Below, piece by piece: positions 15,201-46,939 of a stretch of DNA of 64,000 bases (positions are counted from its first letter, which is position 1; each line of letters begins with the position of its first letter). Location of the stretch: NCBI RefSeq assembly GCF_964355755.1, contig NC_092680.1, positions 7,357,001 through 7,421,000 of the forward strand. The letters are read 5' to 3'. The notes beneath the pieces are model-generated. The model worked only from the letters and a program-made list of their open reading frames with translations, was not told where the DNA came from and searched no databases. The position numbers were made by a program, and so were the translations under genes. This DNA is from Antedon mediterranea (Eukaryota; Echinodermata; Crinoidea; Comatulida; Antedonidae).

Positions 15201-18200
15201 AAACTATTAAATATCGGTGGCAATTATTAAAGTTTAGCGTTACTAAATTCTTGACTTCCTTTGTAAATTGTTGTTTTTGACAATGCGTATAAACCGTTGT
15301 TTGTCATACTGTACTTTAATGCCCAGTTGGTTTATGCAAAAGTCGTGGTTCTATGCACATTTTTCTTCCCTGGGGCCGTGCACATTGTTCTTACCTGTGA
15401 CCGTGAACATTGTTCTTCCCTGGGGCCGTGCACATTGTTCTTCACTGGGGCCGTGCACATTGTTCTCACCTGGGGCCGTGAACATTGTTCTTACCTGGGG
15501 CCGTGCACATTGTTCTTCCCTGGGGCCGCGCACATTATTCTTACCTGGGGCCGTGCACATTGTTCTTACCTGGGGCCGTGCACATTGTTCTTACCTGGGG
15601 CCGTGCACATTGTTCTTCCCTGGGGCCGTGCACATTGTTCTTCCCTGGGGCCGTGCACATTGTTCTTACCTGGGGCCGTGCACATTGTTCTTACCTGGGG
15701 CCGTGCACATTTTTCTTCCCTGGGGCCGTGCACATTGTTCTTCCCTGGGGCCGTGCACATTGTTCTTACCTGGGGCCGTGCACATTGTTCTTACCTGGGA
15801 CCGTGAACATTGTTCTTCCCTGGGGCCGTGCACATTGTTCTTCCCTGGGGCCGTGCACATTGTTCTTACCTGGGGCCGTGCACATTGTTCTTCCCTGGGG
15901 GCCGTGCACATTTTTCTTCCCTGGGGCCGTGCACATTTTTCTTCCCTGGGGCCGTGCACATTGTTCTTACCTGGGGCCGTGCACATTGTTCTTACCTGGG
16001 GCCGTGCACATTTTTCTTCCCTGGGGCCGTGCACATTGTTCTTACCTGGGGCCGTGCACATTGTTCTTACCTGGGGCCATGCACATTTTTCTTACCTGGG
16101 GCCGTGCACATTGTTCTTACCTGGGGCCGTGCACATTGTTCTTACCTGGGGCCGTGCACATTGTTCTTACCTGGGGCCGTGCACATTGTTCTTACCTGGG
16201 GCCGTGCACATTGTTTTTACCTGGGGCCGTGCACATTGTTCTTCCCTGTGGCCGTGCACATTGTTCTTTCCCCGGGTTGTGCACATTGTTCTTTCCTCGG
16301 GTTGTGCACATTGTTATTCCCTGGGGCCGTGGGCATTGTTCTTCCCTGGGACGGTGCACATTGTTCTTTAACTTCCCAGGCTACTGGCTCTGTAGTCTGT
16401 CTTTTTCTTTTTTTACAGTAATTGGCAGCCTAGTAGTAGTAGATTACACACTGTTATTTGCTCATAAGCATAGCTATTTGATCAAACCAGTCTTCAGACA
16501 CGAGAGTCTTCTATTTCATAAGAAATTCATAATGACATTTTACCAATGTATATAATGCTTTTGGGTGATATTACCAAAGATTAACAATATCATATTGATG
16601 TTTGTGTCGCCCACACAGTGCCGGACAATTCTTCAAAGGTTGTCATTATAAAGGTTACTCTGCTAGACCATTCTGTTTCTTTTGTACACTTTACAAGATA
16701 ATTAAAAGTTGATAAAATAGTCTGAATATGATATAAACCATTTATTAATGTTTTGGGGACATTTATTAATGTTTTAGGGGAAATTTAATCTTTTAACAAG
16801 GATTGAATTTGTGTATGCAATAAAGTTGTAAGAAAATATTGGTTTATTATTCTTTATTTTCTTATGTAGTAAAACACCACATTTAGTAACTTTAGACAAT
16901 TGTACCTACCTGGTATATACATACAGGATATTTTGTTGATATTAACAGTGTTTTTAAACAGATATTTAAAACACATGTGTGCATTCATAAAAATGTATCT
17001 AAAACTAATACAGTACTCATCTTTAGCTAGTTCATCATTCATTTTAATTGTCCATCCTTGTACAGTAGCTAACTGGTATCATCTCATTCATTGATAACCA
17101 ATTTACATATGGCTTTATGTTGATTTTATGTGTTTTTTTCAAATAATTTATTGGTTTATATAATTATATTTTCATTTTAAATAAATATTCTTGTTGATAT
17201 ATACAGTAACAGTGCATTTTTTTTCTAGGTCCATCTCTGTGACAACGTAGTCTATTAATCCCTTTAATCTAAACCCTGAAAATTACTTTCCTCATATTTC
17301 AGTGATAAATTTCTATCTTTGCAATTGTAATACTGTCACTCAATAGTAAACTGCTAATTATTTTATGCAACATTAGTGTTAAAAAATGGTTAAAAAAAAA
17401 ATCTATTAAAGCCCTCTCTCAAGGTAAGAAACTCAAAAACGACAAAAAAATGTGGAAAATAGGTGGGCTTATATATATGACTAAATTTGGTATAGAATTA
17501 AATAGCTAATCTTTTATTTAAGATTTTTTGATGAGTACAGTTAAATTTAATTAATTTATATTTTGCTGGTAAATATAGTACAATCAAAATGACGATTAAA
17601 TACTGTGTTAGCTTTCAGAACTGGCATTTTTTAATAGCACTACAATTTGAATTCAAAGTAAAAATCAATAAAATAAAATTGCAAGTGCTTAGTGCCTTGT
17701 TTTATCCACTGATATTAATAAAATAAAAATTAATATGCTATGCTTGAATGATAAGACATTACCCATTCATCATTATATATATTATTTATGAGAATATTGT
17801 AGAATTACATTTTTATAGTTAGCCTTGGGCTAGAATTGAATTTGATTTTAGTTTACAGAATGTACAGTATCAACTAATTTATTCATCAATTCATATGAAT
17901 TATAATGTGTTTTGAATTTAAATTGTATTCAATTTGGAATTACTGAGTCAAATTTTTATACTATAGAATTATTGTAACGAAAATATTGCTGGTCCTTACT
18001 ATAGCCTTGTTTGAAGTTTTCTATAAAATTAAAAAAATTGTTAACCAAAAAAAAAGGTTTGCATACGGTACTGTAGGGAATTAAAACTTAGTAAAGTAAT
18101 GAGTGAGTGTGTGGCCAAGCGATTAAGACAGTGGAACTATAATACCTTGCCATATTAAAATCGGCAAGGGTTCGAGTCTCACTCGCTCCATGGTTATGAT

Positions 18201-21200
18201 GGTAGAACAAGTCTTCTTGGATAAGGAATATAAACTGTAGGTCCAGTGTACACATCTGGCTCATGTGCACTTTAAAGAACCTAGTAGTACATCTTTCGAG
18301 AGGAGTAGGAGGTTACATACAGCCACTGTCACATCATGAAGGCCCCTTGATTAGCATACAGTGTTTAGGGTTACTCTCTATAAATAAGGTTGAATAAATA
18401 AAAATGATACAAGATTTGTTTTTAAAAAGGTAAATTTGAGATTGTCATTTTGAGCTGGGTTGTTATCCTACAACCGTCTTGTGCAGTAAATCATACATGT
18501 CAAAACTGTACAGTTTACATGCTGCCTTAAAAAGAATGGGAGTATGAGTAAATGTGTTTGTTTTTAGTTTCCAATATGAATCTGAAAAACATTTTTCCAC
18601 TTTGGGTCTGCCATACCTACTGTACAATACTGATCACTGCCAATTAATTAAGTAATCAATCATGGTAGTGTATTTCAGCTGAAGTGAATCTTTTTCAACA
18701 TCAAAACAGTCAAAGTACAGTAATGCTACTTTTAAAACTTATCTCAATTAACACTTTGACTGCCAGAGGTTTTTCCAGTTAGAAACTGCCACCGCCAGCG
18801 TTTTTAACCCAATTCGATGTTTTTATTAAAGCTGATTGAAACTATGTATGTGATCTGATTTATATGTAATTTATACAAAAATAATCATGAAGAATTTAGC
18901 TTTACAATGGTACCAAGAACGATTTTCAAATCGCAATATGTAAATCATAATAGTAAAATAAAAGTAACCCACTTTTTGAGTTTTTCGTACTTTCGCGCAA
19001 GAAAGTCGAGATATTCCCAATTTTGTGCAAGGCATCACAATATGAAAATATCGCCTGGTGAGATCAACATTTAAATAACAAAAAAGTTACTTACATAGGC
19101 CTATAAAACAAATTATCACTATTGAAAAATGTATTATATTTTATAAATCATAAATCTTACATCAATGTTTCGCCAAAATCCACATAGTAAAGACACCAGG
19201 CCTAGTTAACCAGGCCTAAAGCTGGTCCGGAACCGTTTTACGACTAGGCCTAGGCTAGCCTAGTACTACTAGCCTAGCTAGTAAACTGATGATAATATCC
19301 ATACCATTTCTAAACAAGTTTGTTGCGTGAAACTCGGTCACTTACAGTGAAACACCAAAACAATTAGGGTATACATACAATAATAAAATTAAAAACTTCA
19401 TATTGAAAATGACTCCTTTATTTTTGATTCAGATAACAAACAAACATGCCAATCCACAAAAACCTTTGTAATGCTTCGGCGGCATAGCTAGCGCGCGACC
19501 TATACACAATGTGCCAAGCCATTGCTCTACGCGCTACTGTGATGCGCAGTGTATGTTATTTCGAAAGGTACCATTTTGACAGTCGTTCGTAACCAGATTA
19601 GTTACTTTCAATATAGTGTCCATATTTATAGTATATATCAATAATTAACCTATCTACCGGAATTCGTAAAAAAACGTGAAACACGAAGATCTTTGTGTTT
19701 GGCAGTCAAGCGTTGTGTTTCCAAACACGAAGATCTTCATGTTTGGCAGTCAAAGTGTTAAGAATTATGTTCCCAAAAATTACAAAAGAATCTGGAATTG
19801 ATAAATGATACCTCTCATACTAAGAGGCACTCTCTGTACATGTATGACATCTACCTATTCCAATAACGGAACATATTTTGAAGCCCCAATGGTTCTGCCT
19901 ACCCTCCTGCTAATGATATCATTATCTCTAACAATAACAACAACAATAAATAGTAATTTGTTTTTATAGCTCTGAGTACAACTTACTATTGTTATTTTTG
20001 TAGTTATTATACATCTTCACTCTTATTGATAAAGTGCTTTTCATTTTGTATTTTTCAGGTAATGCCTCGTCATGACGAGATGCATACGCAATCAATTGGT
20101 CGTAACGCAGGTCTTGTATGCCGGCGAGTGTACCATAAAAAGCACATATCCTTTACTTAATTTAATACACTAACATACTGATTTCAATTTAATTTTCATT
20201 ATAAATATACTTTATACTAGTAGTACATTGTACCTGTCTTTGACTGGTGGTTGGGAATAAAATAAACAGAGAGAAGTTTCATTATAACACTGTACCTTTA
20301 TTGAAGGACATCACTTTTTGTTGCTAAACTATATAATTTTAAGACATTACGTTAGTGATGCTTGCTCATTTAAACTAACTTGTACTAAATATTTAATTAT
20401 CAATTGGAACAAATGATATTATACCATCCAAGAAACAAATATTAATATTTTCTTTTCTGATATAGAAATTTTGAATACAGTATGTACTGTATGAATCAAT
20501 CAATGTGTTATGTATTATAATTTACAGCTTATTTTCCTTAGCGCTTAGCACATGGATAACACACCATATACACAGCACTACCTAACACCACCATCAGAAA
20601 CTGGATGGAGGAGGTAAGATATCAAAAATCTATTAACAAATATAATATGTATATGTTTTAGACTTAGTAAAGCCGCTATCATGGCTTAATGAGTTTTACC
20701 ACAGTCACAGTATAGTAAGGTCGGTGAAACCTAGTAACTGTCCTGCTTGATAAGTTTTCAAATATATATACAAAATAGTCGTGCCTAGCTTACCTGGATA
20801 AACTGACTCTCTAATGTCTTGAAAAGAAATGATGATGGTGGTTTGTGGAGAGGCTCCAGAACCAGTTCATGGACTATACCATTTGTAGAGAGGTGTGTTA
20901 AATGAAAATTTCTACTTTTCGAGTTATTTCTCGCTCTTCGAGGAGAAAGGACTATTGTCCGTTTATCCAGGTAAGCTAGCACTCATAGACTACCAACACC
21001 ACTGTTGGTTTGTGTAATATTTAGCATATTATATTTTATATTTATTTTATTAATTTATATTTCATGCAGAACACATTCAGATTCTTCATTGCATATAACA
21101 GCCATGGGTGGAGGAGATACTGGATCATATCCAGCGCCCCAGACAGCTCCGGTTCGATCTAGAGGTATGCCGATGTTTTCTGGTAAGATAATGTGATATT

Positions 21201-24200
21201 CCCGTCCCTCTGTGGAGTATCAGAATTTGTGTTTATTTTTCTTTTTTTACTGTAAACTTTGTGATCGTTTGTGTTGTAAAATATTATACAGTTAAATTAA
21301 CCTGAACCTCTTAGGAAGGGAGTTGTCATTATGTAATCACTGATACTTGTTCAGAAACAGCTAGGTCAAGATATTACTTCAGATATCATGAACCAAATTT
21401 ATGAATAAGGTACATGTTGTCCCGTTTACTTTCAAGGGTCTGTCAGACTAAGTAACAAGAGGACAATTGGAAGACCCACTCCCTCAAATCCGCTTCTCCA
21501 AAATAAACACAATACAGTTTTTTTACGACAACTTTTTAACAATTTTTCCCAACCTAACACAAAGTAAAGCACAGATGCTACTGTTTTGTACTGAAATATA
21601 ATATTGTAAAATTATACAAAAAAAACTGCTAATAAGAATTAGTATGAAAGGCACATACGGATACATACATGGTTCATTGGTTATTCAACCATTTCTTATT
21701 TTAAACCCATAACACCATTAACAATGAAACCATAAGCAAATCTAAAAATATATTCAAATGTTATGTCACTTTACTAAAGTATTTATCACTCCATTATTTT
21801 AGAACATTTTATTTTACAACATTTTATTTAGAAAGTGTAATTACCTACTAAAACAAATATGAAAATATAATATTTCAAATAAATAGTAGAAAGAAGGACA
21901 CTCCAGCAAGGATATTCCTGTAGAATCCCAAAATAATTGGTGATTCGTTTAATATTATTTGTATTTTTGTAAATTCAACAATGTTTACTTTGTTTCAAAT
22001 AGGAAATTTAATTTTGTTGTTTGAAAGTTTACATGGTGAATAAACCCTTCTAAAGCCATGTTACACTTTGTGTTTTTAAAAGAAATAAATTAAGTTGAGA
22101 TTTTCATGAGTAAAACCAAAATGTTGATACGCAAACCTGGCTAATTTATAATGTAAAGCTCTGTCTACACTATTAAATAAACTAGTTTGACATAAAATTG
22201 TTATGTGCCCAATATGGTAGTGATATGCCCAATTATGGTAGTGATATGTATGGTCACATTTGATATTGTAGACAGAGCTTTAAATGACCCAATCCTTTCA
22301 CAGTTTATTAATGCGACACCTAAAGTCTGAAACATTACCATTCATAATAACAATATTAATCTTCAGTTTACTTTTAAATGTCACCATGAGTATGAAATCA
22401 ATATTTTTACACTACTGGTGTTAACACTTAGATTTTCTTGCATAAGCTGAGGTTTCTTTTCAATTGTAAAGGTGTTTATTGTAGTTTTTTGTGGTTTTTT
22501 TTTTCCATATTTCTTTCCATTGTCAAACGTACAATATGTATTTATTTATCCAAAGTGTATTTTTTGTTTGTTCTACAATTTTGATAATAGGAATAATAAT
22601 TATTCTATTACATTTGTTTTTTCCAGATTTTGATCAGGGTATGATGGACGGAGATTGTAAATCTGGTCCTTGGGATGCAAAAAAGGTAGGTCCTTTTAGT
22701 TTTGTTATTTGAATTTCTATGAACATATCCTTTGAAAATCTATGAAAATGTTTTCTTGTAATACATAAAGCAGAGTAAGTGTAAGCCTCTCAATTTCAAT
22801 TGGAACACAACCATTTGAGATTGTGAGTAAACTATGGAATTGAGATTTATTAGTTACAGGAAAAGTATACCTTGCAGTCTAGTATACAGTAGTTGTATGA
22901 TTACATCCCACCTGTTATTTTTCAAATGTTGACTTACATAATACATTACACTGGGTACACCTCATTAAGTTTGACAAATATGATAACATTGATTCAACGT
23001 TAAATGCAATTTATATCTACATACATGTCGTCTTGCTTTGAACAAGTCTGCACAAATATTATATTTTACTAATTAAATAAACTAAATGTATTGCATAATA
23101 TACGAGGCATTGATATAGTTTTTGAAAAAAATAATGTATAACAGTCATCGGGGGAAATTGCTATGATCATTTGCACAATTATGTATGAGAGTGTTTTCTA
23201 TGTAATAAATTGTCATGAGAGATGCTTAACTTAAAAGGTTGACCTTATTTCTATGAAATTGCTAATTACCATGATTTGTTATTATCTATTTATTTTTGTT
23301 ATGTGGCCATTAAAATATATAGACCATTCAGAAGATTTCATTTCATGTGTGAATTACTATCTTCTAGTAATTACTACATGTTCCAGGAAATGTTACCAAT
23401 TTAAAACAGTTATTTTCAAATAGCTAAAATTTTTTTATCAAAACTATCATTATTTTATTGCCACTAACATTTAAAAAGTTAATTTATAAAAATTGTACTG
23501 AACATTATGAAAAATATATTTTATAATCTAAATATTATACAGTTATAATCTAAATGATATATGGTAAGCCTGCCTTGTTGACATCAATTCTCTGTCGCAA
23601 TAGTTCGCTCTCTGTCATTTATATAACTCATTGTTTTAAACATTCTTTTTGATTTCCACAGTTGCAGAATCGTCCCAAGTCATGTGAAGTGCCTGGTATA
23701 AAGTAAGTATAATTACTAATCATTATCACTTTTGGTGGAGTTTGGTGTACTGTAAAATGAAACGGGATTTCTCTATGTTTTTATATGTGGTAGATTTAAA
23801 GAAAGAATGAACATAGGAAAATTAGCCTCCAAGTTTATTATGATTTTATACCCAGCCCTAGTTTCTATAGTTACCAGAGTCATCATATAGTAAAATGGTA
23901 ACCATTATTAAATATAACGACGGAAATTTCTGTCTCAAATGCAATCTTTTGATTTAATGAGTGAGAGTTTGTGTAGCAATCATCGCCAAAATATCGACCA
24001 TTATATATTATTTTTTACAAACTTGGCTTTTAAACAGTTTCATCGATACATTTTTGCACATAATTTTTGATCGTTTTCATGATGTACAAATGCCTAATAT
24101 AAACAAACATGACCCAGTTTTTTTTTTGTGTGACATTGAGATTTTTTTCAACTGGCCTATTTCCTTTATATTTAATAATTTTCAAAATTGTGTTCACAAT

Positions 24201-27200
24201 ATTGTTTAAGTGCTAGAATGCCTATGGCTACAATCATAATGTATTGTATAATGAATTTTTCTACAATGTATTCGAGTTGGTTTTACACATAATTGGTGTG
24301 TCTCCTCAACTTTGTCTTAAGTCAATGATTCTATTGGGAATGAATATAGTTTCTTAAGTTCTTAAAAATTAAATCTATCTAAAACATATCTAAAGGTAAA
24401 AATATTTCAATTTGTTATGACAATGATAGTAAAAGGCCACTGATTATTATTTTCATAGAAATGTGTGCATTACTGTAGTGTTAAGGTTTTTTCAATGTTA
24501 GAAAAAAGATAAAATATGTATAGATGGTTTTTTAAATTTATCAAGATAATGTATTCATTCCCTCATAATATTAATTTACTGTTTTTAATTTATGAAAAAT
24601 GTAGATCTGATTTTAGAAATGTTTTGCATAAAATTAATGTGAAAGTTATAATTATTTTTTACTGATTGATTTTCAGTATTTATCCTTCTGAACAAGAAAC
24701 AGGAACAGTACCAATTCCCATTCAAAACACAGGATCACTACCAGATCTTACAAATATACACATCCCTACGCCATTAATGACGCCTTTAGACAATGACGAA
24801 CAGACCATGTACAATCATAGTAGCACTAACAATTTGCAAGCAACTACCGTACAGATTTTAGGAATGTCACAAAGTCCGCAATCACCGCAGTCACACAGCC
24901 CGCAACCACGCAGCCCTCAATTGAGTCCGGCAATAAGTCCACAGATACAACGTCGAAATAAAACAAATCCAGTCGCAATTTCTTTAGGTCATCATAACCA
25001 AGGGTGTTTACAAGTAAGTTCTCTTTTTTATGTCTTTTAAGCTCTAGTTTCAAGTTCAAGTTTATTTATATACAATATAATACAGAACATAAATTGAAAT
25101 TGTCTGAGGAGAATGCATTAATCCAAGGCTTTAAGTTTGGTCCTCTATCTACACTATCAAACTTTACGTGACAACAAATGTGATGTGCCCATATATGGAC
25201 ATGGTGATGTCATATCATTATCATATTTGGGTATATCCATATTTGGGCACATCACACTTTTTTTGTCAAACTATTTTGATAGTGCATATACCAATAGATA
25301 AAATCAATACTTTTTCAATTATTTAGATTTCATTCATTAATATTTTCATTCCATAAATGATTTGATAGAAAGCGAAGTCATTAATGTATGATAAATTACA
25401 AGGAACGTATCTATTTGACTTGGTACAGTATCATTCATCAGAATAATGATTCACTAGAATAATGTTAATGTTATCATAACATTTTCATGTGTGTATACTT
25501 GTTTATGTTCAAAAAGTAATCGATTTTTATACTAACTATTTGAGGTCAAACAATTCCAGATAAACAATTATATTTACATTGTAAATATTGAAAAAAATCA
25601 TAAAACTAATAATGTTATTTAATGTTGTTTCTGCTTTCAAGTATCATCAGGGTCTGTTAACCATTTATTTTAAAATGGATTAAAAATAACAAGACCGCTC
25701 AATTTGTGCTCCGGTTAAACAGAAATCTGTAGAATTACCCAAAATGCAATTGCTCTTGGCAGTTAATTCAAACGTTACAGCCGTGTAGTTGACTTGGGGT
25801 CAGCAGCTGTCAATCAAATAAGCGTTATTTTGTGTTGCAGCTAAAAGTTGCTCAGCGATAACCGGTTAAATGGTGTTCTAACACCGAATTGAATGGGTGT
25901 TTTTAACCAGTTATTTTGAGCTGCCTTTTAACCGGTTACCTGCTCCCAAGAAAATGAAGTTAATTTAGTCACACCGATTTTAATCGGTTACTTTTATGCA
26001 GCAGAAACAGGCCCATAGATAGCTGATAGTGAATGTTTCCAGTGGTGTTTGGATGATTATAATTGTGTTTTATTTATTGCGGATACAATAGTCGACTATT
26101 TTCTCTTTTTTTCACATAGTAGTACCAATGAACGACTTTTCTTGTTTTCTTTCAATGCAATTTTCATTTTAATCGGTTACTTTTATGCAGCAGAAACAGG
26201 CCCATAGATAGCTGATAGTGAATGTTTCCAGTGGTGTTTGGATGATTATAATTGTGTTTTATTTATTGCGGATACAATAGTCGACTATTTTCTCTTTTTT
26301 TCACATAGTAGTACCAATGAACGACTTTTCTTGTTTTCTTTCAATGCAATTTTCATTCTTTTGCAATTAGTCACAATGTTTGTTTTAATATTATCATATG
26401 TTATCAAGTTATCATTCTGTTTGTATAGTGTTTTCTTCCTTCCGTATGATTATTGATGTATACTCTAATGTACCATTAATTATTTATATCAATATATTAA
26501 TCTTTTGAATGTTTTTTGTTGTGTCAGATGCAAGATTCAGGAGGAATGGTTATGGATCAGAGTTTACCTAAGTACCAAGTTTTTCAAAATCAACCACCAC
26601 AATCACCTCAACACTCTAGTAACATTTTATCACTTGATAAGGTATGCTGCATTGTCATCTAAAATTGAATTTTTTAAATTCCCCCAAAAACCTGAAAAAT
26701 AAAAATTAAAATCAGACGTTGAATAGGCCATTTTGCGGTTAAATAATAAAGTTATTCAGTTCTGTACTAAAACAAATTTCACTTGTATTAATTTTAACCA
26801 AAAACCATTGTCTGACAGACAATTGAGGTATATTTTGCTTAAAATTACATTTTTTATTCAGGGAAAATGTTTATCCAGTTTTTGGTCAACTTAAAGTGAA
26901 TAACTATTATGTGACATTAAAAAAATGGCATATTCAACAACAATGAAATTTAAAAAAATATTTTTTTAAGGGCGACAATATATCTTTAAAACCAAAGAAT
27001 AAAAATAAAGTAGAAATCCTATTCAGGAGACATAGCTGTTCAGAGAACACTCTTTACATTTTTATAGATGTTATTCCTGTGAAATTAACCAGGAGCAGTA
27101 TTTATATTATTTAGAGGACTTTGTTTGTCCCAAACGAGTTCAAAAAAATGTAAAAAAAAAAAGTAAATAAAATCCACTATTCTTTGTATTTTCTATTTCA

Positions 27201-28671
27201 TTATATAAATAAATAAACTAATAACGTTTTCATTTATTTGCAGTCTGGTATGCAACAGTACAGAGAGACTTCATCTGTTGGGCCTACAACCTCATGTTCA
27301 TCTCCAACGTCACCTGTTTCTAATCCTAATTTTTCACCTGCAGCCTCCCCTGGACCCCCTGGGTCAGTTGGCTGTCCCTCACCCGCATTATCAGATGCAT
27401 ACTCACAACGAATACTACAACAACAGTTTGAAGACTTTACAATGGTTGGGGATCACAGTCCAACTCATCAGCCATCTCAGTATCAGGTTTGTTATAAGAT
27501 TAGAGATGTGTGGATTAGCAGGATTAGGGAAAGGATTAAGTATTTAAATAATTTGTATTTTTAGACAAATTAAAAGTTGGTTTAATTCCCATATAAAAAA
27601 AAAAAAACCAATGCATTTCCACATGGTTTAATGTACTTACTGCGAAGTGCAATTTGTTCGTAACATCTGCATAATTCATTATATATTCTGGAAATGTGCC
27701 TTGCATGCATTAAGGATTTGTGAAGATGATCTTAAACCTAGGTATTGCACAAATGCAAATTACTAAATGAAAGTAACTATTTTGGTGGAATATGCTTAAC
27801 ATTGTGTGACAGCTGTATAAATATCTTATCTTTTTTTTTTGTAGTTTCCTGGAATGTTTGAACAAAACTATTTTGGAAATCCGCAATCGTACCACCACAA
27901 GGTGCCGCCACCGGCTTACCATCAGCCGTTCCCTCAATATCCTCAAGTTAATAATATCCCATCTATAATTTTATCTGGTATGTACACATTTTTTTTCCTA
28001 TTTTGGAATTTCATTTATACTACTACTGCCACCAATCTTTGATTTATACCACATACATGCATTGTTGTTAGAATTCAGTTGAAATTATAATTTGGAATGA
28101 GCTGACATAAAAAAAACCTTAAATTGCTGATATAAAAGATATAAAGAAATAAATGATGTTGTATATGAAATTTCAAAAAAATATTATTATTTATTATCAC
28201 AAATTTCCCCCCAAATATATGAATATTAAAATGAATAAAATACAAATAAGTTTGAAGTTTCAATAAACTTTTCAATTTAACCAAAAACCTGTTTCCCGAT
28301 GGACAATGTGCATCTAGTTAATTATTTTTAAAATGCAAGTTGTTTCAGGTAAATAATCGGTATTTTTCTTCCAATTTCTTTGGCATCAATGTGACATATT
28401 AACAAACAATTATTTTTTCAGAGGCACGAAATATCTGTAATAATTTTGTTTGTATTTATCAGGTGTAACAGACTCACAAGATATGGCAAAAGATATTCAT
28501 TCTGCAATGGTTGGCTATGACCATGAGTCTCTATTTAGTGCAGAGGACAGTCTCAAGTTAGACCCCCTAGAATGTGAAGATTTCCAGATGTTACTCGAGA
28601 ATGACCCCGTTACTGATCAAACCACCGAAGACTCCTTTCGAGCTGACAGAATGGGAGGGTTATACAAGTAA
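182..28671 (+). CDS. CRTC: CREB-regulated transcription coactivator (CRTC/TORC), complete, 13 coding exons
   Basis: CRTC proteins bind the bZIP domain of CREB and carry cAMP/calcium signals to CREB target promoters; phosphorylation holds them in the cytoplasm on 14-3-3. Coding exons: 182-295, 478-588, 8049-8090, 20059-20145, 20552-20613, 21070-21182, 22627-22685, 23662-23702, 24677-25013, 26528-26641, 27244-27486, 27845-27977, 28463-28671. They sum to 1665 nt and the phases fit at every junction, giving 554 residues. The N-terminus has the CREB-binding motif [11 protein letters not shown] (residues 5-15). The middle has [10 protein letters not shown] (137-146), SCEVPGINIYPS and [15 protein letters not shown]. 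The linker is rich in S, P and Q, and the C-terminus is the acidic activation block. The ATG at 182 is chosen because it is the first in-frame ATG after the stop at 71-73 and sits just before the family motif. The protein is somewhat shorter than vertebrate CRTC1-3. Only one locus is seen here, as expected for an invertebrate. Confidence 0.93.
296..477 (+). other. CRTC intron 1
   Basis: 182-nt GT-AG intron between coding exons 1 and 2. I see nothing in it besides the splice signals. Confidence 0.85.
478..588 (+). CDS. CRTC: CRTC coding exon 2
   Basis: Residues 39-75, phase 0 on both sides, acceptor TTTTAG and donor GTGAGT. The stretch [10 protein letters not shown] matches the GGSLPNVN block that follows the CREB-binding helix in vertebrate CRTCs. 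The exon ends in GAFQ, aligned with the family's LPFQ. Confidence 0.9.
2608..2769. mobile_element. TA-MITE family A, copy 1
   Basis: 162-bp element flanked by TA on both sides (2606-2607, 2770-2771). Ends AAGCTCTATACACTATC and GATAGTGTAGACAGAATCTT are imperfect terminal inverted repeats; TGTGATGTGCCCA and the reverse form near the right end extend the palindrome. No coding capacity, consistent with a non-autonomous TA-targeting DNA transposon. Six further copies occur in this window. Confidence 0.8.
3265..3590. repeat. 78-bp tandem repeat, 4 copies
   Basis: Units start with TTACCTGAACTACAGTAATA at 3271, 3354, 3432 and 3510. The first unit is 83 bp because of a 5-bp TATTG insertion; the others are 78 bp and nearly identical. 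Lies in CRTC intron 2. Confidence 0.9.
3643..3690. repeat. Fragment of TIR element B
   Basis: TCGTGCCTAGCTTACCTGGA followed by TAAAC matches the left end of the elements at 4320 and 20779. No right end is visible, so only the left terminal part is present. Confidence 0.5.
4320..4516. mobile_element. TIR element B, copy 1
   Basis: About 197 bp. Left end CGTGCCTAGCTTACCTGGAT; right end contains GTTTATCCAGGTAAGC then CATAGACTACCAACACCACT and GTTGGTTTGTGTA, which also closes the copy at 20779-21018. Internal sequence differs between copies. The inverted ends carry CAG|GTAAGC, a strong 5' splice site consensus, readable on either strand. Confidence 0.6.
5199..5345. repeat. Inverted-repeat (hairpin) element
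   Basis: AATGTTTTGTTTTCACATGG near 5202 and the near-reverse complement CCACGTGAAAACGAAACATT near 5323-5342 form imperfect 20-25-bp inverted ends around about 100 bp. It is likely a short MITE; only this copy was noticed. Confidence 0.45.
6305..6541. mobile_element. TA-MITE family A, copy 2
   Basis: Right end AAGTTTGATAGTGTAGACAG plus AGCTT followed by TA is intact; the left terminal repeat is eroded (about 13 bp missing) but TTATGTGACAAAATGTGATG remains. The centre carries several copies of TATGGTAGTGATATG, a short internal tandem expansion that makes this copy longer than the others. Confidence 0.7.
6703..6826. mobile_element. TA-MITE family A, copy 3 (left-truncated)
   Basis: Shares AATGTGATGTGGCCAAATAT, GGGCACATCA and the right end GATAGTGTAGACAGAGCTT followed by TA with the other copies. 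The left terminal inverted repeat is missing. Confidence 0.7.
7090..7325 (+). mobile_element. tRNA-derived SINE candidate
   Basis: Possible Pol III A box TGGCTAGGAC (7107-7116) and B box GGTTCAATTCC (7142-7152) at tRNA-like spacing. They are followed by a non-tRNA body including CAGCTGTAAATAGAGTACG. The end is not sharp. It is a decayed retroposed element rather than a functional tRNA, because no acceptor stem can be formed. Confidence 0.55.
8049..8090 (+). CDS. CRTC: CRTC coding exon 3, 42-nt microexon
   Basis: Fourteen residues (76-89, [14 protein letters not shown]), phase 0 on both sides, acceptor ATCTAG and donor GTAAGT. It is basic and tyrosine-rich, with no clear counterpart that I recall in vertebrate CRTCs. 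The support is splice sites plus frame rather than homology, so it could be an optional cassette exon or a false exon. Skipping it would leave the frame intact. Confidence 0.6.
10787..10806. repeat. Poly-C tract
   Basis: Nearly pure cytosine run interrupted by one T. Such tracts are prone to length error in both replication and sequencing. Confidence 0.9.
10860..12151. mobile_element. TA-flanked non-autonomous DNA transposon, pogo/Tigger-like
   Basis: 1292 bp between TA dinucleotides (10858-10859 and 12152-12153). Left end CAGTCAACTCTCCCAATACT, right end reads AGTTGACTG and is the inverted counterpart (GGTATTGGGACAGTTGACTG). Further AAACCGGA motifs are repeated near both ends. Known pogo/Tigger elements use TA targets and start with CAGT, so this affiliation is likely but unproven. 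No transposase frame is visible. Confidence 0.7.
13790..14625. mobile_element. TA-flanked TIR element (CCGTATATTT ends)
   Basis: 836 bp between TA dinucleotides (13788-13789, 14626-14627). Left end CCGTATATTTCGGTGTATAA, then GTCGCACC; the right end is the inverse, with GTGCGACTTATACACC then AAAATATACGG. Additional GTATAAGACGCACC copies sit inside both ends. No transposase is encoded. The terminal sequence resembles widespread non-autonomous elements of animals with CCGTATTTTTCGG-type ends; superfamily uncertain. Confidence 0.75.
15355..16369. repeat. 25-bp minisatellite, about 40 copies
   Basis: Unit GTTCTTACCTGGGGCCGTGC followed by ACATT, repeated head to tail. Main variants are TTACC versus TTCCC, and TTGTTC versus TTTTTC. 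One 26-bp unit near 15900 has an extra G, shifting the phase. Period 25 is not a multiple of 3, so all frames run open over hundreds of bases without being coding. The complement of TTACCTGG is CCAGGTAA, a 5' splice site consensus, so the minus strand carries many of them. Confidence 0.95.
18098..18405 (+). mobile_element. tRNA-derived SINE
   Basis: Starts with a tRNA Leu/Ser-like head: A box TGGCCAAGCGATTAAG and B box GGTTCGAGTCT (18169-18179), with extra sequence between them as in long-variable-arm tRNAs. The stems are not intact. A unique body (including GTAGGTCCAGTGTACAC) and a tail of AATAAATAAA repeats (to about 18405) follow. Confidence 0.7.
18752..19757. mobile_element. piggyBac-like non-autonomous element with TTAA target duplication
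   Basis: 1006 bp flanked by TTAA on both sides (18748-18751, 19758-19761). Ends CACTTTGACTGCCA and its exact inverse TGGCAGTCAAAGTG. Both TTAA duplication and a CTTTGACTGCCA-type terminus agree with known piggyBac relatives. The interior is AT-rich and has no transposase frame. Close to the right end, ACACGAAGATCTT occurs twice. Confidence 0.82.
20059..20145 (+). CDS. CRTC: CRTC coding exon 4
   Basis: Residues 90-118, acceptor TTTTTCAG. The end, [16 protein letters not shown], matches the family block RHHGLVDRVYRERGR. There is no usable GT donor after the conserved VY. The exon runs directly into ATATCCTTT, the U12-type 5' splice site consensus, and would reach an in-frame TAA soon after if not spliced there. 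Confidence 0.87.
20146..20551 (+). other. CRTC: Candidate U12-type (AT-AC) intron of CRTC
   Basis: 406-nt intron. It starts ATATCCTTT (20146-20154), an exact match to the minor-spliceosome 5' site. Near the 3' end, TTCCTTAGC (20534-20542) differs at one base from the U12 branch consensus TTCCTTAAC and keeps A20540. The intron ends in CAC at 20549-20551, about 11 nt after that A, inside the range usual for U12 introns. Splicing AT...AC joins CAC|ATG in frame and gives VYHKKH-MDNTPY. An AG at 20547-20548 could serve as an alternative acceptor, adding one histidine. Confidence 0.85.
20552..20613 (+). CDS. CRTC: CRTC coding exon 5
   Basis: Residues 119-138 plus two bases of codon 139; donor GTAAGA. 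The peptide [17 protein letters not shown] aligns with PYGTMYLSPPADTSWRR of vertebrate CRTC1. This exon supplies the W and R at -5 and -3 relative to the regulatory serine in exon 6. Confidence 0.92.
20614..21069 (+). other. CRTC intron 5
   Basis: 456-nt GT-AG intron, about half of it occupied by TIR element B copy 2 (20779-21018), which ends about 50 bp before the exon 6 acceptor. Confidence 0.85.
20779..21018. mobile_element. TIR element B, copy 2
   Basis: 240 bp. Left CGTGCCTAGCTTACCTGGAT then AAAC; inverted right end GTTTATCCAGGTAAGCTAGC then ACTC, about 20 of 23 bases matching. The trailing CATAGACTACCAACACCACT and GTTGGTTTGTGTA are shared with the copy at 4320-4516. It lies in CRTC intron 5 and adds a CAG|GTAAGC sequence in the sense strand about 100 bp before exon 6. 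Confidence 0.7.
21070..21182 (+). CDS. CRTC: CRTC coding exon 6 (SIK/AMPK-type site)
   Basis: Residues 139-176, acceptor ATGCAG, donor GTAAGA, ends in phase 1. RTHSDSSLH corresponds to RTNSDSALH of vertebrates. Ser142 sits in a hydrophobic-x-R-x-x-S-x-x-x-L context (W137, R139, L146), the pattern phosphorylated by SIK/AMPK kinases for 14-3-3 binding (Ser171 of mammalian CRTC2). Confidence 0.92.
21183..22626 (+). other. CRTC intron 6
   Basis: 1.4-kb GT-AG intron. Contains TA-MITE copy 4 at 22156-22280; otherwise AT-rich sequence in which I see nothing further. Confidence 0.85.
22156..22280. mobile_element. TA-MITE family A, copy 4 (short form)
   Basis: 125 bp flanked by TA (22154-22155, 22281-22282). 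Left end AAGCTCTGTCTACACTATTA; right end TATTGTAGACAGAGCTT. The right inner part (GGGCACATCACA) is deleted, giving the shortest copy. Confidence 0.78.
22627..22685 (+). CDS. CRTC: CRTC coding exon 7
   Basis: Completes codon 177 and encodes residues to 196, acceptor TTCCAG, donor GTAGGT. The end, GPWDAKK, matches the QAWDTKK block of vertebrate CRTC1, which lies just before the [10 protein letters not shown] motif. Confidence 0.9.
22686..23661 (+). other. CRTC intron 7
   Basis: 976-nt GT-AG intron, AT-rich; nothing recognised inside. Confidence 0.85.
23662..23702 (+). CDS. CRTC: CRTC coding exon 8
   Basis: Residues 197-209 plus two bases, acceptor TCCACAG, donor [16 protein letters not shown] is nearly invariant in the family. 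Its serine lies in a block reported as a second 14-3-3-controlling site in mammalian CRTC2; the assignment here is by similarity. Confidence 0.92.
23703..24676 (+). other. CRTC intron 8
   Basis: 974-nt GT-AG intron, AT-rich; nothing recognised inside. Confidence 0.85.
24677..25013 (+). CDS. CRTC: CRTC coding exon 9
   Basis: Largest coding exon, residues 210-322, acceptor TTTCAG, donor GTAAGT. It begins with NIYPS (family NIFPS), then [15 protein letters not shown], the core of the TORC_M region. A low-complexity stretch of repeated SPQ units (residues about 276-300) and a basic QRRNK segment follow. Confidence 0.92.
25141..25290. mobile_element. TA-MITE family A, copy 5 (eroded)
   Basis: Contains TCTACACTATCAAACTTTAC, AATGTGATGTGCCCATATAT, TTTGGGCACATCACA and GTCAAACTATTTTGATAGTG in the family order. 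Both outermost ends are mutated and no clear TA duplication remains. Confidence 0.7.
25978..26355. repeat. 189-bp tandem duplication
   Basis: Two head-to-tail copies offset by exactly 189 bp (TAATCGGTTACTTTTATGCA at 25981 and 26170), apparently without differences. Lies in CRTC intron 9, about 170 bp before exon 10. Confidence 0.92.
26528..26641 (+). CDS. CRTC: CRTC coding exon 10
   Basis: Residues 323-360, phase 0 on both sides, acceptor GTGTCAG, donor GTATGC. The content is rich in Q, P and S ([15 protein letters not shown]), as in the variable linker of other CRTCs. Identification rests on frame, splice sites and position between conserved exons. Confidence 0.83.
26642..27243 (+). other. 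CRTC intron 10
   Basis: 602-nt GT-AG intron, AT-rich; nothing recognised inside. Confidence 0.85.
27244..27486 (+). CDS. CRTC: CRTC coding exon 11
   Basis: Residues 361-441, phase 0 on both sides, acceptor [35 protein letters not shown] and the following [10 protein letters not shown] match [28 protein letters not shown] and LEQFNMME of vertebrate CRTC1. Confidence 0.93.
27487..27844 (+). other. CRTC intron 11
   Basis: 358-nt GT-AG intron; nothing recognised inside. Confidence 0.85.
27845..27977 (+). CDS. CRTC: CRTC coding exon 12
   Basis: Residues 442-485 plus one base, acceptor TTTGTAG, donor GTATGT. Rich in Y, P, H and Q, ending NNIPSIILS, which aligns with the SGIPNIILT block before the C-terminal activation domain. 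Confidence 0.92.
27978..28462 (+). other. CRTC intron 12
   Basis: 485-nt GT-AG intron; nothing recognised inside. Confidence 0.85.
28463..28671 (+). CDS. CRTC: CRTC coding exon 13 (activation domain, stop)
   Basis: Residues 486-554 and TAA (28669-28671), acceptor TTATCAG. TORC_C region: [14 protein letters not shown] and [10 protein letters not shown] correspond to LKIDPLTLDGLHML and TEDTFRMDRL of vertebrate CRTC1. The tail after DRM (GGLYK) is slightly longer than in mammals. Confidence 0.95.
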
Positions 28672-34545: not shown

Positions 34546-37500
34546 GGCCAATTTTCAACCTTTCTATTTTTCGACATAACTAGTTTCCATATCATAATTG
34601 ACATACGCAGAACACATTATTTGATTCTGCGCATGTCAATTATGATATAGTAACCAGTTATGTCCAAAAATTAAAGGGGTCAAAATTTTGCTATTTTTGG
34701 AAAATTTTCTTGTACATGGATTTTTTCAAAACCAAATTTCAACCTTTTTATTTTTCGACATAACTAGTTTCCATATCATAATTGACATGCGCAGAACACA
34801 TTATTTGATTCTGCGCATGTCAATTATGATATAGTAACCAGTTATGTCCAAAAATTATAGGGGTCAAAATGTCGTTATTTTTTAAAAATTTCCCTGTACT
34901 ATAGTACATGGATTTTTTCAAAACCAAATTTCAACCTATTTATTTTTCGACATAACTAGTTTCCATATCATAATTGACATGCGCAGAACACATTATTTGA
35001 TTCTGCGCATGTCAATTATGATATAGTAACCAATTATGATATAGTAACCAGTTATGTCCAAAAATTATAGGGGTCAAAATTTCGTTATTTTTTGAAAATT
35101 TCCCTGTACTATAGTACATGGATTTTTTCAAAACCAAATTTCAACCTTTTTATTTTTGGACATAACTAGTTTCCATATCTTAATTGACATGCGCAGAACA
35201 CATTATTTGATTCTGCGCATGTCAATTATTATATAGTAACCAGTTATGTCCAAAAATTATAGAGGGGTCAAAATTTCGCTATTTTTGGAAAATTTCTCTG
35301 TACAATAGTATAGTAGACTACATGGATTTTTTCAAAACCAAATTTCAACCTTTTTATTTTTCCACATAACTAGTTTCCATATCATAATTGACATGCGCAG
35401 AACACATTATTTGATCTGCGCATGTCAATTATGATATAGTAACCAGTTATGTCAAAAAATTATAGGGGTCAAAATTTCGCAATTTTTTTGAAAATTTTCC
35501 TGTAGGCCTACTATAGTACATGGATTTTTTCAAAATCAAATTTCAACCTTTTTATTTTTCGACATAACTAGTTTCCATATCATAATTGACATGCGCAGAA
35601 CACATTATTTGATTCTGCGCATGTCAATTATGATATAGTAACCAGTTATGTCCAAAAATTAAAGGGGTCAAGATTTCGCTATTTTTTAAAAATTTCCCTG
35701 TACTATAGTACATGGATTTTTTCAAAACCAAATTTCAACCTTTTTATTTTTCGACATAACTAGTTTCCATATCATAATTGACATGCGCAGAACACATTAT
35801 TTGATTCTGCGCATGTCAATTATGATATAGTAACCAGTTATGTCCAAAAATTATAGGGGTCAAAATTTCGCTATTTTTTGAAAATTTCCTTGTACTATAT
35901 ATAGTACATGGATTTTTTCAAAAGCAAATTTCAACCTTTTTATTTTTCGACATAACTAGTTTCCATATCATAATTGACATGCGCAGAACACATTATTTGA
36001 TTCTGCGCATGTCAATTATGATATAGTAACCAGTTATGTCCAAAAATTATTGGGGACAAAATTTTGGCTATTTTTTTTAAATTTCCTTGATAGTACATGG
36101 ATTTTTTCAAAACCAAATTTCAACCTTTTTATTTTTTGACATAACTAGTTTCCATATCTTAATTGACATGCGCAAGACACATTATTTGATTCTGCGCATG
36201 TCAATTATTATATAGTAACCAGTTATGTCCAAAAATTATAGTGGTTAAAATTTCGCTATTTTTGAAAATTTCCCTGTACTATAGTAGGCCTACATGGATT
36301 TTTTCAAAACCAACTTTCAACCTTTTTATTTTTCGACATAACTAGTTTCCATATCATAATTGACATGCGCAGAACACATTATTTGATTCTGCGCATGTCA
36401 ATTATGATATAGTAACCAGTTATGTCCAAAAATTATAGGGGTCAAAATTTCGCTATTTTTTTGAAAATTTTCCTGTAGGCCTACTATAGTACATGGATTT
36501 TTTCAAAATCAAATTTCAACCTTTTTATTTTTCGACATAACTAGTTTCCATATCATAATTGACATGCGCAGAACACATTATTTGATTCTGCGCATGTCAA
36601 TTATGGTATAGTATAACCAGTTATGTCCAAAAATTATAGGGGTCAAAATTTCACTATTTTTTGAAAATTTCCCTGTACTATAGTACATGGATTTTTTCAA
36701 AACAAAATTTCAACCTTTTTGTTTTTCGACATAACTAGTTTCCATATCATAATTGACATGCGCAGAACACATTATTTGATTCTGCGCATGTCAATTATGA
36801 TATAGTAACCAGTTATGTCCAAAAATTAAAGGGGTCAAAATTTCGCTATTTTTTGAAAATTTCCCTGTACTATAGTACATGGATTTTTTCAAAACCAAAT
36901 TTCAACCTTTTTATTTTTCGACATAACTAGTTTCCATATCATAATTGACATGCGAGAAAACATTATTTGATTTTGCGCATGTCAATTATGATATAGTAAC
37001 TAGTTATGTCCAAAAATTATAGGGGTCAAAATTTCGCTATTTTTTGAAAATTTCCCTGTACTATAGTACATGGATTTTTTCAAAACCAAATTTCAACCTT
37101 TTTATTTTTCGACATAACTAGTTTCCATATCATAATTGACATGCGCAGAACACATTATTTGATTCTGCGCATGTCAATTATGATATAGTAACTAGTTATG
37201 TCCAAAAATTATAGGGGTCAAAATTTCGCTATTTTTTGAAAATTTTCCTCTAGGCCTACTATAGTACATGGATTTTTTCAAAATCAAATTTCAACCTTTT
37301 TATTTTTCGACATAACTAGTTTCTATATCATAATTCACATGCGCAGAACACATTATTTGATTCTGAGCATGTAAATTATGATATAGTAACCGTTATGTCC
37401 AAAAATTATAGTGGTCAAAATTTCGTTATTTTTTGAAAATTTCCCTGTACTATAGTACATGGATTTGTTCAAAACCAAATTTCAACCTTTTTATTTTTCG

Positions 37501-37881
37501 ACATAACTAGTTTCCATATCATAATTGACATGCGCAGAACACATTTTTTTTCTGCGCATGTCAATTATGATATAGTAACCAGTTATGTCCAAAAATTATA
37601 GGGGTCAAAATTTCGCTATTTTTTGAAAATTTCCCTTAACCATAGTACATGGATTTTTTCAAAACCAAATTTCAACCTTTTTATTTTTCGACATAACTAG
37701 TTTCCATATCATAATTGACATGCGCAGAACACATTATTTGATTCTGCGCATGTCAATTATGATATAGTAACCAGTTATGTCCAAAAATTATAGGGGTCAA
37801 AATTTCGCTATTTTTTGAGAATTTCCTTGTACTATAGTACATGGATTTTTTCAAAACCAAATTTCAACCTTTTTATTTTTC

Positions 37882-40800
37882 GACATAACTAGTTTCCATA
37901 TCATAATTGACATGCGCATAACACATTATTTGATTCTGCGCATGTCAATTATGATATAGTAACCAGTTATGTCCAAAAATTATAGGGGACAAAATTTCGC
38001 TATTTTTTGAAAATTTCCCTGATAGTACATGGATTTTTTCAAAACCAAATTTCAACCTTTTTACCCTGTACTATAGTACATGGGTTTTTTCAAAACCAAA
38101 TTTCAACCTTTTTATTTTTCGACATAACTAGTTTCCATATCATAATTGACATGCGCAGAACACATTATTTGATTCTGCGCATGTCAATTATGATATAGTA
38201 ACTAGTTATGTCCAAAAATTATAGGGGTCAAAATTTCGCTATTTTTTGAAAATTTCCCTGTACTATAGTAGGCCTACATGGATTTTTTCAAAGCCAAATT
38301 TCAACCTTTTTATTTTTCGACATAACTAGTTTCCATATCTTAATTGACATGCGCAAGACACATTATTTGATTCTGCGCATGTCAATTATGATATAGTAAC
38401 CAGTTATGTCCAAAAATTATAGGGGTCAAAATTTCATTATTTTTTAAAAATTTCCCCGTAGGCCTACATGGATTTTTTCAAAACCAAATTTCAACCTTTT
38501 AATTGTTCGACATAACTAGTTTCCATATCATAATTGACATGCGTAGAACACATTATTTGATTCTGCGCTTGTCAATTATTATATAGTAACCAGTTATGTC
38601 CAAAAATTATAGTCGTTAAAATTTCGCTATTTTTGAAAATTTCCCTGTACTATAGTACATGGATTTTTTCAAAACCAAATTTCAACCTTTTTATTTTTCG
38701 ACATAACTAGTTTCCATATCATAATTGACATGCGCAGAACACATTATTTGATTCTGCGCATGTCAATTATGATATAGTAACCAGTTATGTCCAAAAATTA
38801 TAGGGGTCAAAATTTCGCTATTTTTTGAAAATTTCCCTGTACTTTAGTACATAGATTTTTTCAAAACCAAATTTCAACCTTTTTATTTTTCGACATAACT
38901 AGTTTCTATATCATAATTGACATGCGCAGAACACATTATTTGATTCTGAGCATGTAAATTATGATATAGTAACCGTTATGTCCAAAAATTATAGTGGTCA
39001 AAATTTCGTTATTTTTTGAAAATTTCCCTGTACTATAGTACATGGATTTTTTCAAAACCAAATTTCAACCTTTTTATTTTTCGACATAACTAGTTTCCAT
39101 ATCATAATTGACATGCGCAGAACACATTTTTTTTCTGCGTATGTCAATTATGATATAGTAACCAGTTATGTCCAAAAATTATAGGGGTCAAAATTTTGCT
39201 ATTTTTTGAAAATTTCCCTTAACCATAGTACATGGATTTTTTCAAAACCAAATTTCAACCTTTTTATTTTTCGACATAACTAGTTTCCATATCATAATTG
39301 ACATGCGCAGAACACATTATTTGATTCTGCGCATGTCAATTATGATATAGTAACCAGTTATGTCCAAAAATTATAGGGGTCAAAATTTCGCTATTTTTTG
39401 AGAATTTCCTTGTACTATAGTACATGGATTTTTTCAAAACCAAATTTCAACCTTTTTATTTTTCGACATAACTAGTTTCCATATCATAATTGACATGCGC
39501 ATAACACATTATTTGATTCTGCGCATGTCAATTATGATATAGTAACCAGTTATGTCCAAAAATTATAGGGGACAAAATTTCGCTATTTTTTGAAAATTTC
39601 CCTGATAGTACATGGATTTTTTCAAAACCAAATTTCAACCTTTTTACCCTGTACTATAGTACATGGGTTTTTTCAAAACCAAATTTCAACCTTTTTATTT
39701 TTCGACATAACTAGTTTCCATATCATAATTGACATGCGCAGAACACATTATTTGATTCTGCGCATGTCAATTATGATATAGTAACTAATTATGTCCAAAA
39801 ATTATAGGGGTCAAAATTTCGCTATTTTTTTAAAATTTCCCTGTACTATAGTAGGCCTACATGGATTTTTTCAAAGCCAAATTTCAACCTTTTTATTTTT
39901 CGACATAACTAGTTTCCATATCTTAATTGACATGCGCAAGACACATTATTTGATTCTGCGCATGTCAATTATGATATAGTAACCAGTTATGTCCAAAAAT
40001 TATAGGGGTCAAAATTTCGTTATTTTTTAAAAATTTCCCTGTAGGCCTACATGGATTTTTTCAAAACCAAATTTCAACCTTTTAATTGTTCGACATAACT
40101 AGTTTCCATATCATAATTGACATGCGTAGAACACATTATTTGATTCTGCGCTTGTCAATTATGATATAGTAACCAGTTATGTCCAAAAATTATAGGGGTC
40201 AAAATTTCGCTATTTTTTGAAAATTTCCCTGTACTTTAGTACATAGATTTTTTCAAAACCAAATTTCAACCTTTTTATTTTTCGACATAACTAGTTTCCA
40301 TATCTTAATTGACATGCCCAGAACACATTATTTGATTCTGCACATGTCAATTATGATATAGTAACCAGTTATGTCCAAAAATTATAGGGGTCAAAATTTC
40401 GCTATTTTTTGAAAATTTCCCTGTACTATAGTACATGGATTCTTTCAAAACCAAATTTCAACCTTTTTATTTTTCGACATAACTAGTTTCCATATCATAA
40501 TTGACATGCGCAGAACACATTATTTGATTCTGCGCATGTCAATTATGATATAGTAACTAGTTATGTCCAAAAATTATAGGGGTCAAAATTTCGCTATTTT
40601 TTGAAAATTTCCCTGTACTATAGTAGGCCTACATGGATTTTTTCAAAACCAAATTTCAACCTTTTTATTTTTCGACATAACTAGTTTCCATATCTTAATT
40701 GACATGCGCAAGACACATTATTTGATTCTGCGCATGTCAATTATGATATAGTAACCAGTTATGTCCAAAAATTATAGGGGTCAAAATTTCGTTATTTTTA

Positions 40801-43035
40801 AAAAATTTCCCTGTAGGCCTACATGGATTTTTTCAAAACCAAATTTCAACCTTTTAATTGTTCGACATAACTAGTTTCCATATCATAATTGACATGCGTA
40901 GAACACATTATTTGATTCTGCGCTCGTCAATTATTATATAGTAACCAGTTATGTCCAAAAATTATAGGGGTTAAAATTTCGCTATTTTTAAAAATTTCCC
41001 TGTACTATAGTACATGGATTTTTTCAAAACCAAATTTCAACCTTTTTATTTTTCGACATAACTAGTTTCCATATCATAATTGACATGCGCAGAACACATT
41101 ATTTGATTCTGCGCATGTCAATTATGATATAGTAACCAGTTATGTCCAAAAATTATAGGGGTCAAAATTTCGCTATTTTTTGAAAATTTCTCTGTACTTT
41201 AGTACATAGATTTTTTCAAAACTAAATTTCAACCTTTTTATTTTTTGATATAACTAGTTTCCATATCTTAATTGACATGCGCAGAACACATTATTTGATT
41301 CTGCACATGTCAATTATGATATAGTAACCAGTTATGTCAAAAAATTATAGGGGTCAAAATTTCGCTATTTTTTCAAAATTTCCCTGTACTATAGTACATG
41401 GATTCTTTCAAAACCAAATTTCAACCTTTTTATTTTTCGACATAACTAGTTTCCATATCATAATTGACATACGCAGAACACATTATTTGATTCTGCGCAT
41501 GTCAATTATGATATAGTAACTAGTTATGTCCAAAAATTATAGGGGTCAAAATTTCGCTATTTTTTAAAAATTTCCCTGTACTATAGTACATGGATTCTTT
41601 CAAAACCAAATTTCAACCTTTTTATTTTTCGACATAACTAGTTTCCATATCATAATTGACATACGCAGAACACATTATTTGATTCTGCGCATGTCAATTA
41701 TGATATAGTAACTAGTTATGTCCAAAAATTATAGGGGACAAAATTTCGCTATTTTTTGAAAATTTCCCTGATAGTAGGCCTACATGGATTTTTTCAAAAC
41801 CAAATTTCAACCTTTTTACCCTGTACTATAGTACATGGGTTTTTTCAAAACCAAATTTCAACCTTTTTATTTTTCGACATAACTAGTTTCCATATCATAA
41901 TTGACATGCGCAGAACACATTATTTGATTCTGCGCATGTCAATTATGATATAGTAACTAATTATGTCCAAAAATTATAGGGGTCAAAATTTCGCTATTTT
42001 TTTAAAATTTCCCTGTACTATAGTAGGCCTACATGGATTTTTTCAAAGCCAAATTTCAACCTTTTTATTTTTCGACATAACTAGTTTCCATATCTTAATT
42101 GACATGCGCAAGACACATTATTTGATTCTGCGCATGTCAATTATGATATAGTAACCAGTTATGTCCAAAAATTATAGGGGTCAAAATTTCGTTATTTTTT
42201 AAAAATTTCCCTGTAGGCCTACATGGATTTTTTCAAAACCAAATTTCAACCTTTTAATTGTTCGACATAACTAGTTTCCATATCATAATTGACATGCGTA
42301 GAACACATTATTTGATTCTGCGCTTGTCAATTATGATATAGTAACCAGTTATGTCCAAAAATTATAGGGGTCAAAATTTCGCTATTTTTTGAAAATTTCC
42401 CTGTACTTTAGTACATAGATTTTTTCAAAACCAAATTTCAACCTTTTTATTTTTCGACATAACTAGTTTCCATATCTTAATTGACATGCCCAGAACACAT
42501 TATTTGATTCTGCACATGTCAATTATGATATAGTAACCAGTTATGTCCAAAAATTATAGGGGTCAAAATTTCGCTATTTTTTGAAAATTTCCCTGTACTA
42601 TAGTACATGGATTCTTTCAAAACCAAATTTCAACCTTTTTATTTTTCGACATAACTAGTTTCCATATCATAATTGACATGCGCAGAACACATTATTTGAT
42701 TCTGCGCATGTCAATTATGATATAGTAACTAGTTATGTCCAAAAATTATAGGGGTCAAAATTTCGCTATTTTTTGAAAATTTCCCTGTACTATAGTAGGC
42801 CTACATGGATTTTTTCAAAACCAAATTTCAACCTTTTTATTTTTCGACATAACTAGTTTCCATATCTTAATTGACATGCGCAAGACACATTATTTGATTC
42901 TGCGCATGTCAATTATGATATAGTAACCAGTTATGTCCAAAAATTATAGGGGTCAAAATTTCGTTATTTAAAAAAAATTTCCCTGTAGGCCTACATGGAT
43001 TTTTTCAAAACCAAATTTCAACCTTTTAATTGTTC
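37882..43035. repeat. Higher-order repeat block of the satellite, 5154 bp, copy 1
   Basis: Variant landmarks recur at exactly +5154: monomer-frame starts at 38007, 39590, 39791 and 41334 reappear at 43161, 44744, 44945 and 46488. Within the block a 1583-bp shift relates 38007 to 39590. A 2166-bp shift (2172 after a 6-bp GGCCTA insertion) relates 39590 to 41756. Boundaries are approximate. Confidence 0.88.
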
Positions 43036-46890: not shown

Positions 46891-46939
46891 GTCAAAATTT
46901 CGCTATTTTTTAAAAATTTCCCTGTACTATAGTACATGG

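Follow-up and report, generated by a model that had tools for sequence, protein, structure and literature searches.

The intron at 20146–20551 in the CRTC gene of the feather star (crinoid) Antedon mediterranea is, with a probability of about 95%, a genuine U12-type AT-AC intron. It lies in the only CRTC gene that we found in this genome, shares its codon and phase with an AT-starting intron of vertebrate CRTC1, and most likely goes back to the last ancestor that echinoderms share with vertebrates, or further. CRTC coactivates CREB in response to cAMP. At the level of sequence, the assignment to the U12 type is strongly supported by the splice motifs, the reading frame, the predicted NCBI model, the predicted protein of a second crinoid, the genes of all four minor snRNAs and vertebrate predictions that read into the intron.

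The CRTC gene and its product

The gene is complete within the window (the whole 64,000-nucleotide stretch analysed, C11:7357001–7421000, to which all positions refer). It runs from 182 to 28671 on the + strand, as do all exons and splice features described below, and comprises 12 coding exons whose spliced reading frame is open throughout. Exon 1 (182–295) contains the start codon at 182 and begins the CREB-binding domain TORC_N, matched at 194–295 in the genome search and by Pfam in the spliced protein, and exon 2 (478–588) encodes GGSLPNV. Exon 3 (20059–20145), whose 3′ end reads GLVCRRVYHKKH, and exon 4 (20552–20613), with MDNTPYTQHYLTPPSETGWRR, flank the AT-AC intron; the original prediction had counted the upstream one as exon 4, and in the 12-exon model it is coding exon 3. 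Exon 5 (21070–21182) encodes (R)THSDSSLH and carries TORC_M. The remainder of the model consists of exons 6 (22627–22685), 7 (23662–23702), 8 (24677–25013), 9 (26528–26641), 10 (27244–27486), 11 (27845–27977) and 12 (28463–28671), the last of which carries TORC_C and ends with the stop codon at 28671. Ten of the 11 introns are GT-AG, the one at 20146–20551 is AT-AC, and every junction is in frame.

The spliced protein matches TORC_N (66.3 bits), TORC_M (86.9 bits) and TORC_C (53.2 bits) in this order, all above the Pfam cut-offs, and a TORC_N search of the whole genome (354 Mb, 18 contigs) returned this gene as the single locus. Across the AT-AC junction, the 540-residue product is 100% identical to the NCBI entry "CREB-regulated transcription coactivator 1-like isoform X2" (P0001), a predicted model that represents a cluster of two member sequences, one of which was compared.

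Splice signals of the AT-AC intron

The intron measures 406 nt, lies in phase 0 and has a G+C content of 26%. It begins with ATATCCTTT (20146–20154) and ends with TTCCTTAGCGCTTAGCAC, the final CAC occupying 20549–20551; the terminal AC (20550–20551) is placed as the 3′ splice site by the sequence and by the enumeration of junctions given below. U12 branch sites take the form TTCCTTRAY, and the candidate here is TTCCTTAGC at 20534–20542. The donor is perfect, agreeing at 9 of 9 positions with the U12 consensus ATATCCTT, while the branch site shows one mismatch to the consensus TCCTTAAC (both from PMC2831892), namely an A to G change before the C. The likely branch point is A20540, 11 nt before the intron end, which falls within the optimal distance of 11–13 nt between branch A and 3′ splice site reported for U12 introns, in which either consensus A can be used (PMC3584512). 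The phase counts against the U12 reading, as phase 0 is under-represented among U12 introns (PMC7367187).

An AG at 20547–20548 (TTAG) offers a competing acceptor. The choice TTAG/CAC (a slash marks the junction throughout) would turn the intron into AT-AG, keep the frame and add a single His to the protein, so that the frame itself would permit it as the main 3′ splice site. The distance between the branch A and this AG is just 8 nt, below the optimum cited above, AT-AG combinations are disfavoured in U12 introns (PMC3584512), and the extra His is absent from the NCBI isoform X2. We regard its use as the main site as highly improbable; it could serve a minor isoform.

Major-class (U2) AT-AC introns also exist (PMC2831892, PMC8280824), and removal of the CRTC intron by the major spliceosome, as for some sodium-channel genes, has to be considered. 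The sodium-channel AT-AC introns carry a G at position +5 (PMC2831892), whereas the CRTC intron has a C there, inside a perfect U12 donor. Moreover, its end is preceded at 11 nt by a U12-like branch site, and the tail that follows this site, GCGCTTAGCAC, contains no polypyrimidine tract. Removal by the major spliceosome thus appears extremely improbable. As a member of the U12 class, the CRTC intron presumably depends on the minor spliceosome.

Alternative junctions and the chance level of the motifs

To define the alternatives, donors of the GT, GC and AT types downstream of the RVY codons were combined with acceptors (AG or AC) upstream of PYT, for introns of at least 30 nt. Five introns keep the frame and preserve both RVY and PYT. 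None of the five has a GT donor. Four have an AT donor: three of these begin at ATATCCTTT and end at 20551, 20548 or 20560, and another begins 2 nt later. The fifth is GC-AC and loses HMDNT. The ends of exon and intron share bases, so that the AT-AC solution can be drawn in eight placements that yield the same mRNA; GT-AG or GC-AG ends occur in none of the eight, and the AT-AC placement alone starts with a U12 donor. The original prediction that the exon end lacks a plausible GT donor is borne out by these counts, and with it the reading of 20146–20551 as a U12-type AT-AC intron with perfect donor, branch site, terminal AC and an open frame in phase 0.

Taken singly, the motifs have little weight. 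Exact matches to RTATCCTTT number 2 in the 64-kb window against 2.04 expected, and the branch motif with at most one mismatch occurs 47 times against 85 expected, neither of which is significant. A second perfect ATATCCTTT is found at 22725–22733, in intron 6, 39 nt past the first base of that intron and away from any exon end; we consider it a chance decoy, and it demonstrates that the donor motif by itself proves nothing. The claim therefore rests on the combination. Order-1 Markov simulations gave P = 6.3e-4 for a perfect donor at any of the 31 starts that follow RVY, and P = 3.0e-3 for an AC in phase that has, at 8–16 nt, a branch motif with one mismatch or none. The joint value is P ~1.9e-6, for search ranges that were picked after the site had been seen.

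These numbers bear on the possibility that an ordinary GT-AG intron, or a hidden microexon, joins the two exons and that the U12 motifs are fortuitous. Each motif is indeed expected by chance in 64 kb, but the joint probability is low and the product matches the predicted NCBI model exactly. From the RVY codons up to the TAA at 20158, which lies in frame, the sequence contains no GT, and for this reason a hidden microexon, which was considered and rejected, would need to re-encode RVYHKKH. An ordinary intron or a microexon at this place is so improbable as to be negligible.

RNAs of the minor spliceosome

The Antedon genome contains genes for U12 (125.7 bits), U6atac (136.6 bits, with a weak second match of 33.7), U11 (two genes, 88.6 and 82.9 bits) and U4atac (97.6 bits), all of these genes scoring above the respective gathering scores. 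Aligned by eye, the U12 segment GUAAGGAA forms six standard pairs with UUCCUU(A)GC of the branch site, leaves the A bulged, and continues with a G-U wobble and a C-G pair. The single mismatch of the branch site, which had been noted in advance at the A before the C, is real, and it should cost little since the wobble keeps the helix with U12. Likewise by eye, U6atac offers AAAGGA, the reverse complement of the donor segment UCCUUU, and U11 offers AAAGG for CCUUU.

The motifs, the frame, the match to the annotation and the snRNA genes are direct observations, and from them we infer how the RNAs would engage the CRTC intron in vivo. U11, and then U6atac, would pair with ATATCCTTT. U12 would pair with TTCCTTAGC such that A20540 bulges out and acts as the branch point, and the AC found 11 nt past this adenosine would be taken as the 3′ splice site, with the joined product reading ...RVYHKKH/MDNTPY... 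The zinc-finger family of the U11-48K protein had three matches in the genome, to which we give no weight, as a control archaeon was matched too.

The same position in a second crinoid and in vertebrate CRTC1

A predicted protein of the crinoid Anneissia japonica (P0002, 458 residues, N-terminus missing) reads RTVYRKKH/LDNNPY, which at the protein level places the junction at the same codon. For a wider comparison we used 233 CRTC proteins, made up of the best 120 of 3633 from one search and the best 120 of 1682 from a second, the two sets overlapping. After the motif [VI]DKHGR[QP], 162 proteins join cleanly to the next exon, 52 run on into other residues, and 19 lack the motif; these 19 are 15 proteins from invertebrates or unnamed sources and four vertebrate models that are damaged otherwise at this place. 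The 52 are not a rate of occurrence among the 233, since the second search was built to favour proteins with ISF and ranked them first; the unbiased first search had 3 among its best 120 of 3633.

The continuation in the 52 predictions, all of them vertebrate CRTC1, is uniform: ISF follows directly after HGRQ in 52 of 52. ISF is the phase 0 translation of ATATCCTTT, and an Ile codon (ATH) after HGRQ implies that the vertebrate CRTC1 intron begins with AT. The residue after ISF takes nine different values, as expected for intron sequence, and GRQVSF, the form that a GT start would give, was seen in none of the 233 proteins. Besides many birds and many placentals, the sources of the 52 include a fish, a frog, a marsupial, snakes and turtles. 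The appearance of ISF and unrelated residues after HGRQ is best explained as a recurrent annotation error at an AT-starting intron. Vertebrate CRTC1 thus appears, from these read-through proteins, to have an AT-starting intron at the codon and in the phase of the Antedon intron. The read-through predictions are P0016, P0055, P0106, P0121–P0154 and 15 others.

The homologous vertebrate junction is HGRQ/xDSCPY. The intron had been thought to sit in place of the extra residues that vertebrate CRTCs carry here; this does not hold, as in vertebrates it lies after them. On the 3′ side, 16 readable predictions show residues other than KHGRQ before xDSCPY, and in 8 of the 16 the last of these is His, consistent with a terminal CAC (one fish, a bison, three sheep entries and three birds). 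Eight entries from four bat species (P0106, P0125, P0127–P0129, P0131, P0141 and P0142) have Gln (7) or Val (1) instead, which may reflect a different 3′ end or merely odd gene models. An AC end of the vertebrate CRTC1 intron is therefore no more than plausible.

The match at the level of the codon argues that the CRTC1 intron most likely predates the split between echinoderms and vertebrates. Separate gains in crinoids and in vertebrates at one codon could be imagined, as CRTC has been treated as a candidate minor-intron gain (PMC6865273). Against this, the junction codon before the conserved PY, phase 0 and the AT start are all shared, and the junction between exons 2 and 3 seems to be matched as well, GAFQ/VMPR against DLPFQ/TPFQ, the latter as deduced from vertebrate isoforms. 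We consider independent gain very unlikely, and common descent of the intron remains our reading. For protostomes, a mollusc CRTC query bearing ISF retrieved, from only six candidates, one protein, which was the source of the query itself.

Relation to known minor introns

The CRTC family accounts for three of 59 "younger" human genes with minor introns, was counted as one candidate gain, and the timing of such gains was called unclear (PMC6865273, 2019). Among non-vertebrate deuterostomes other than tunicates, minor-intron densities are close to those of vertebrates, the starfish Asterias rubens being named (PMC10639083). In the light of these two reports, a crinoid CRTC with a U12 intron is in expected company, and the novelty implied by the original prediction was overstated. 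The Antedon intron is a crinoid relative of a kind already catalogued in vertebrates, and mostly ordinary. It shares with the human cases the gene family and, as judged from the read-through proteins, the codon, phase 0 and AT start of vertebrate CRTC1; it differs in lineage, and the passage on the human genes gives neither position nor subtype (PMC6865273). What is new here concerns dating: the CRTC1 intron was probably present before echinoderms and vertebrates diverged.

The Antedon intron resembles other AT-AC introns of the U12 type (PMC3584512, PMC2831892) in the ATATCCTT donor, the TCCTTAAC-like branch, the 11 nt spacing and the AC end; it differs by the one branch mismatch, accommodated by the G-U wobble with U12. 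Its termini place it in the A-type (AT-AN) class of minor introns that depend on CENATAC, of which 92% respond to CENATAC loss in human cells (PMC8280824). The main text of that paper does not contain the word CRTC, nor is CRTC mentioned in the main text of PMC6717393, and a mention of CRTC2 in the excerpt of another U12-related paper concerns SF3B1 mutants. The list of 19 fruit-fly U12 introns in PMC2831892 has no CRTC entry, which means that flies lack the intron or that it was missed. Among the publications listed in our literature searches, we found none on a minor intron in the CRTC of crinoids, and of those listed for minor introns in echinoderms, only PMC10639083 names this phylum.

Possible consequences for CRTC

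Retention of the intron would have a simple outcome. Translation would enter the intron and reach, after four codons, the in-frame TAA at 20158–20160; the product is 108 residues, made up of 104 from the exons followed by ISFT. This fragment would have the CREB-binding TORC_N and lack TORC_M and TORC_C. A control role of the intron is accordingly possible. The intron could be kept as a retention switch, in which low activity of the minor spliceosome or of CENATAC would lead to retention, and retention to decay of the mRNA or to a protein with TORC_N only; if this were true, the short protein, devoid of the regulatory and transactivation regions, would damp CREB output, and the gate would have been kept since the deuterostome ancestor. 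We consider this scheme unlikely. That a CREB-binding-only CRTC fragment acts as a dominant negative is conjecture, as the passages of the one paper found on it leave the construct undefined. The original suggestion that cAMP/CREB output could be tied to U11/U12 activity is speculation.

Other consequences concern age and annotation. The rare intron that a crinoid and, as it appears, vertebrates share puts a probable lower limit on the age of a candidate gain for which no date was given (PMC6865273). It also provides a clean test case for the question of chance or control in the persistence of minor introns. In addition, it offers a reason for the mis-annotation of CRTC1 in many genomes: gene callers that enter ATATCCTTT would add ISF and unrelated residues.

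Other features of the window

The introns of CRTC and the DNA downstream contain several repeats. In intron 2, a minisatellite at 15354–16368 consists of 40.6 copies of 25-nt units, and the long open frames on both of its strands are repeats, not genes. In the same intron, perfect 18-nt inverted repeats about 1 kb apart delimit 18748–19761, with TTAA at start and end, a habit for which we take the segment to resemble a non-autonomous piggyBac-like element. A stretch near 18110–18190 had looked tRNA-like by eye; the search found no tRNA, and the window gave no Rfam match. Intron 8 holds a 189-bp tandem duplication (25977–26357, 2.0 copies, 100% match) that is either a recent event or a duplication of the assembly. 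Downstream of the gene, about 12 kb (34548–46939) are filled by tandem repeats of ~192 bp, whose unit includes a palindrome-like stretch, followed by an array of 31-nt units (49508–55114, 181 copies, 95% match) and one of 27-nt units (56168–58201, 75 copies). At 59315–60166, a reverse-transcriptase fragment (RVT_1, 60.5 bits) is followed by a match to ALKBH8_N (43.6 bits), and this segment is probably part of a retrotransposon.
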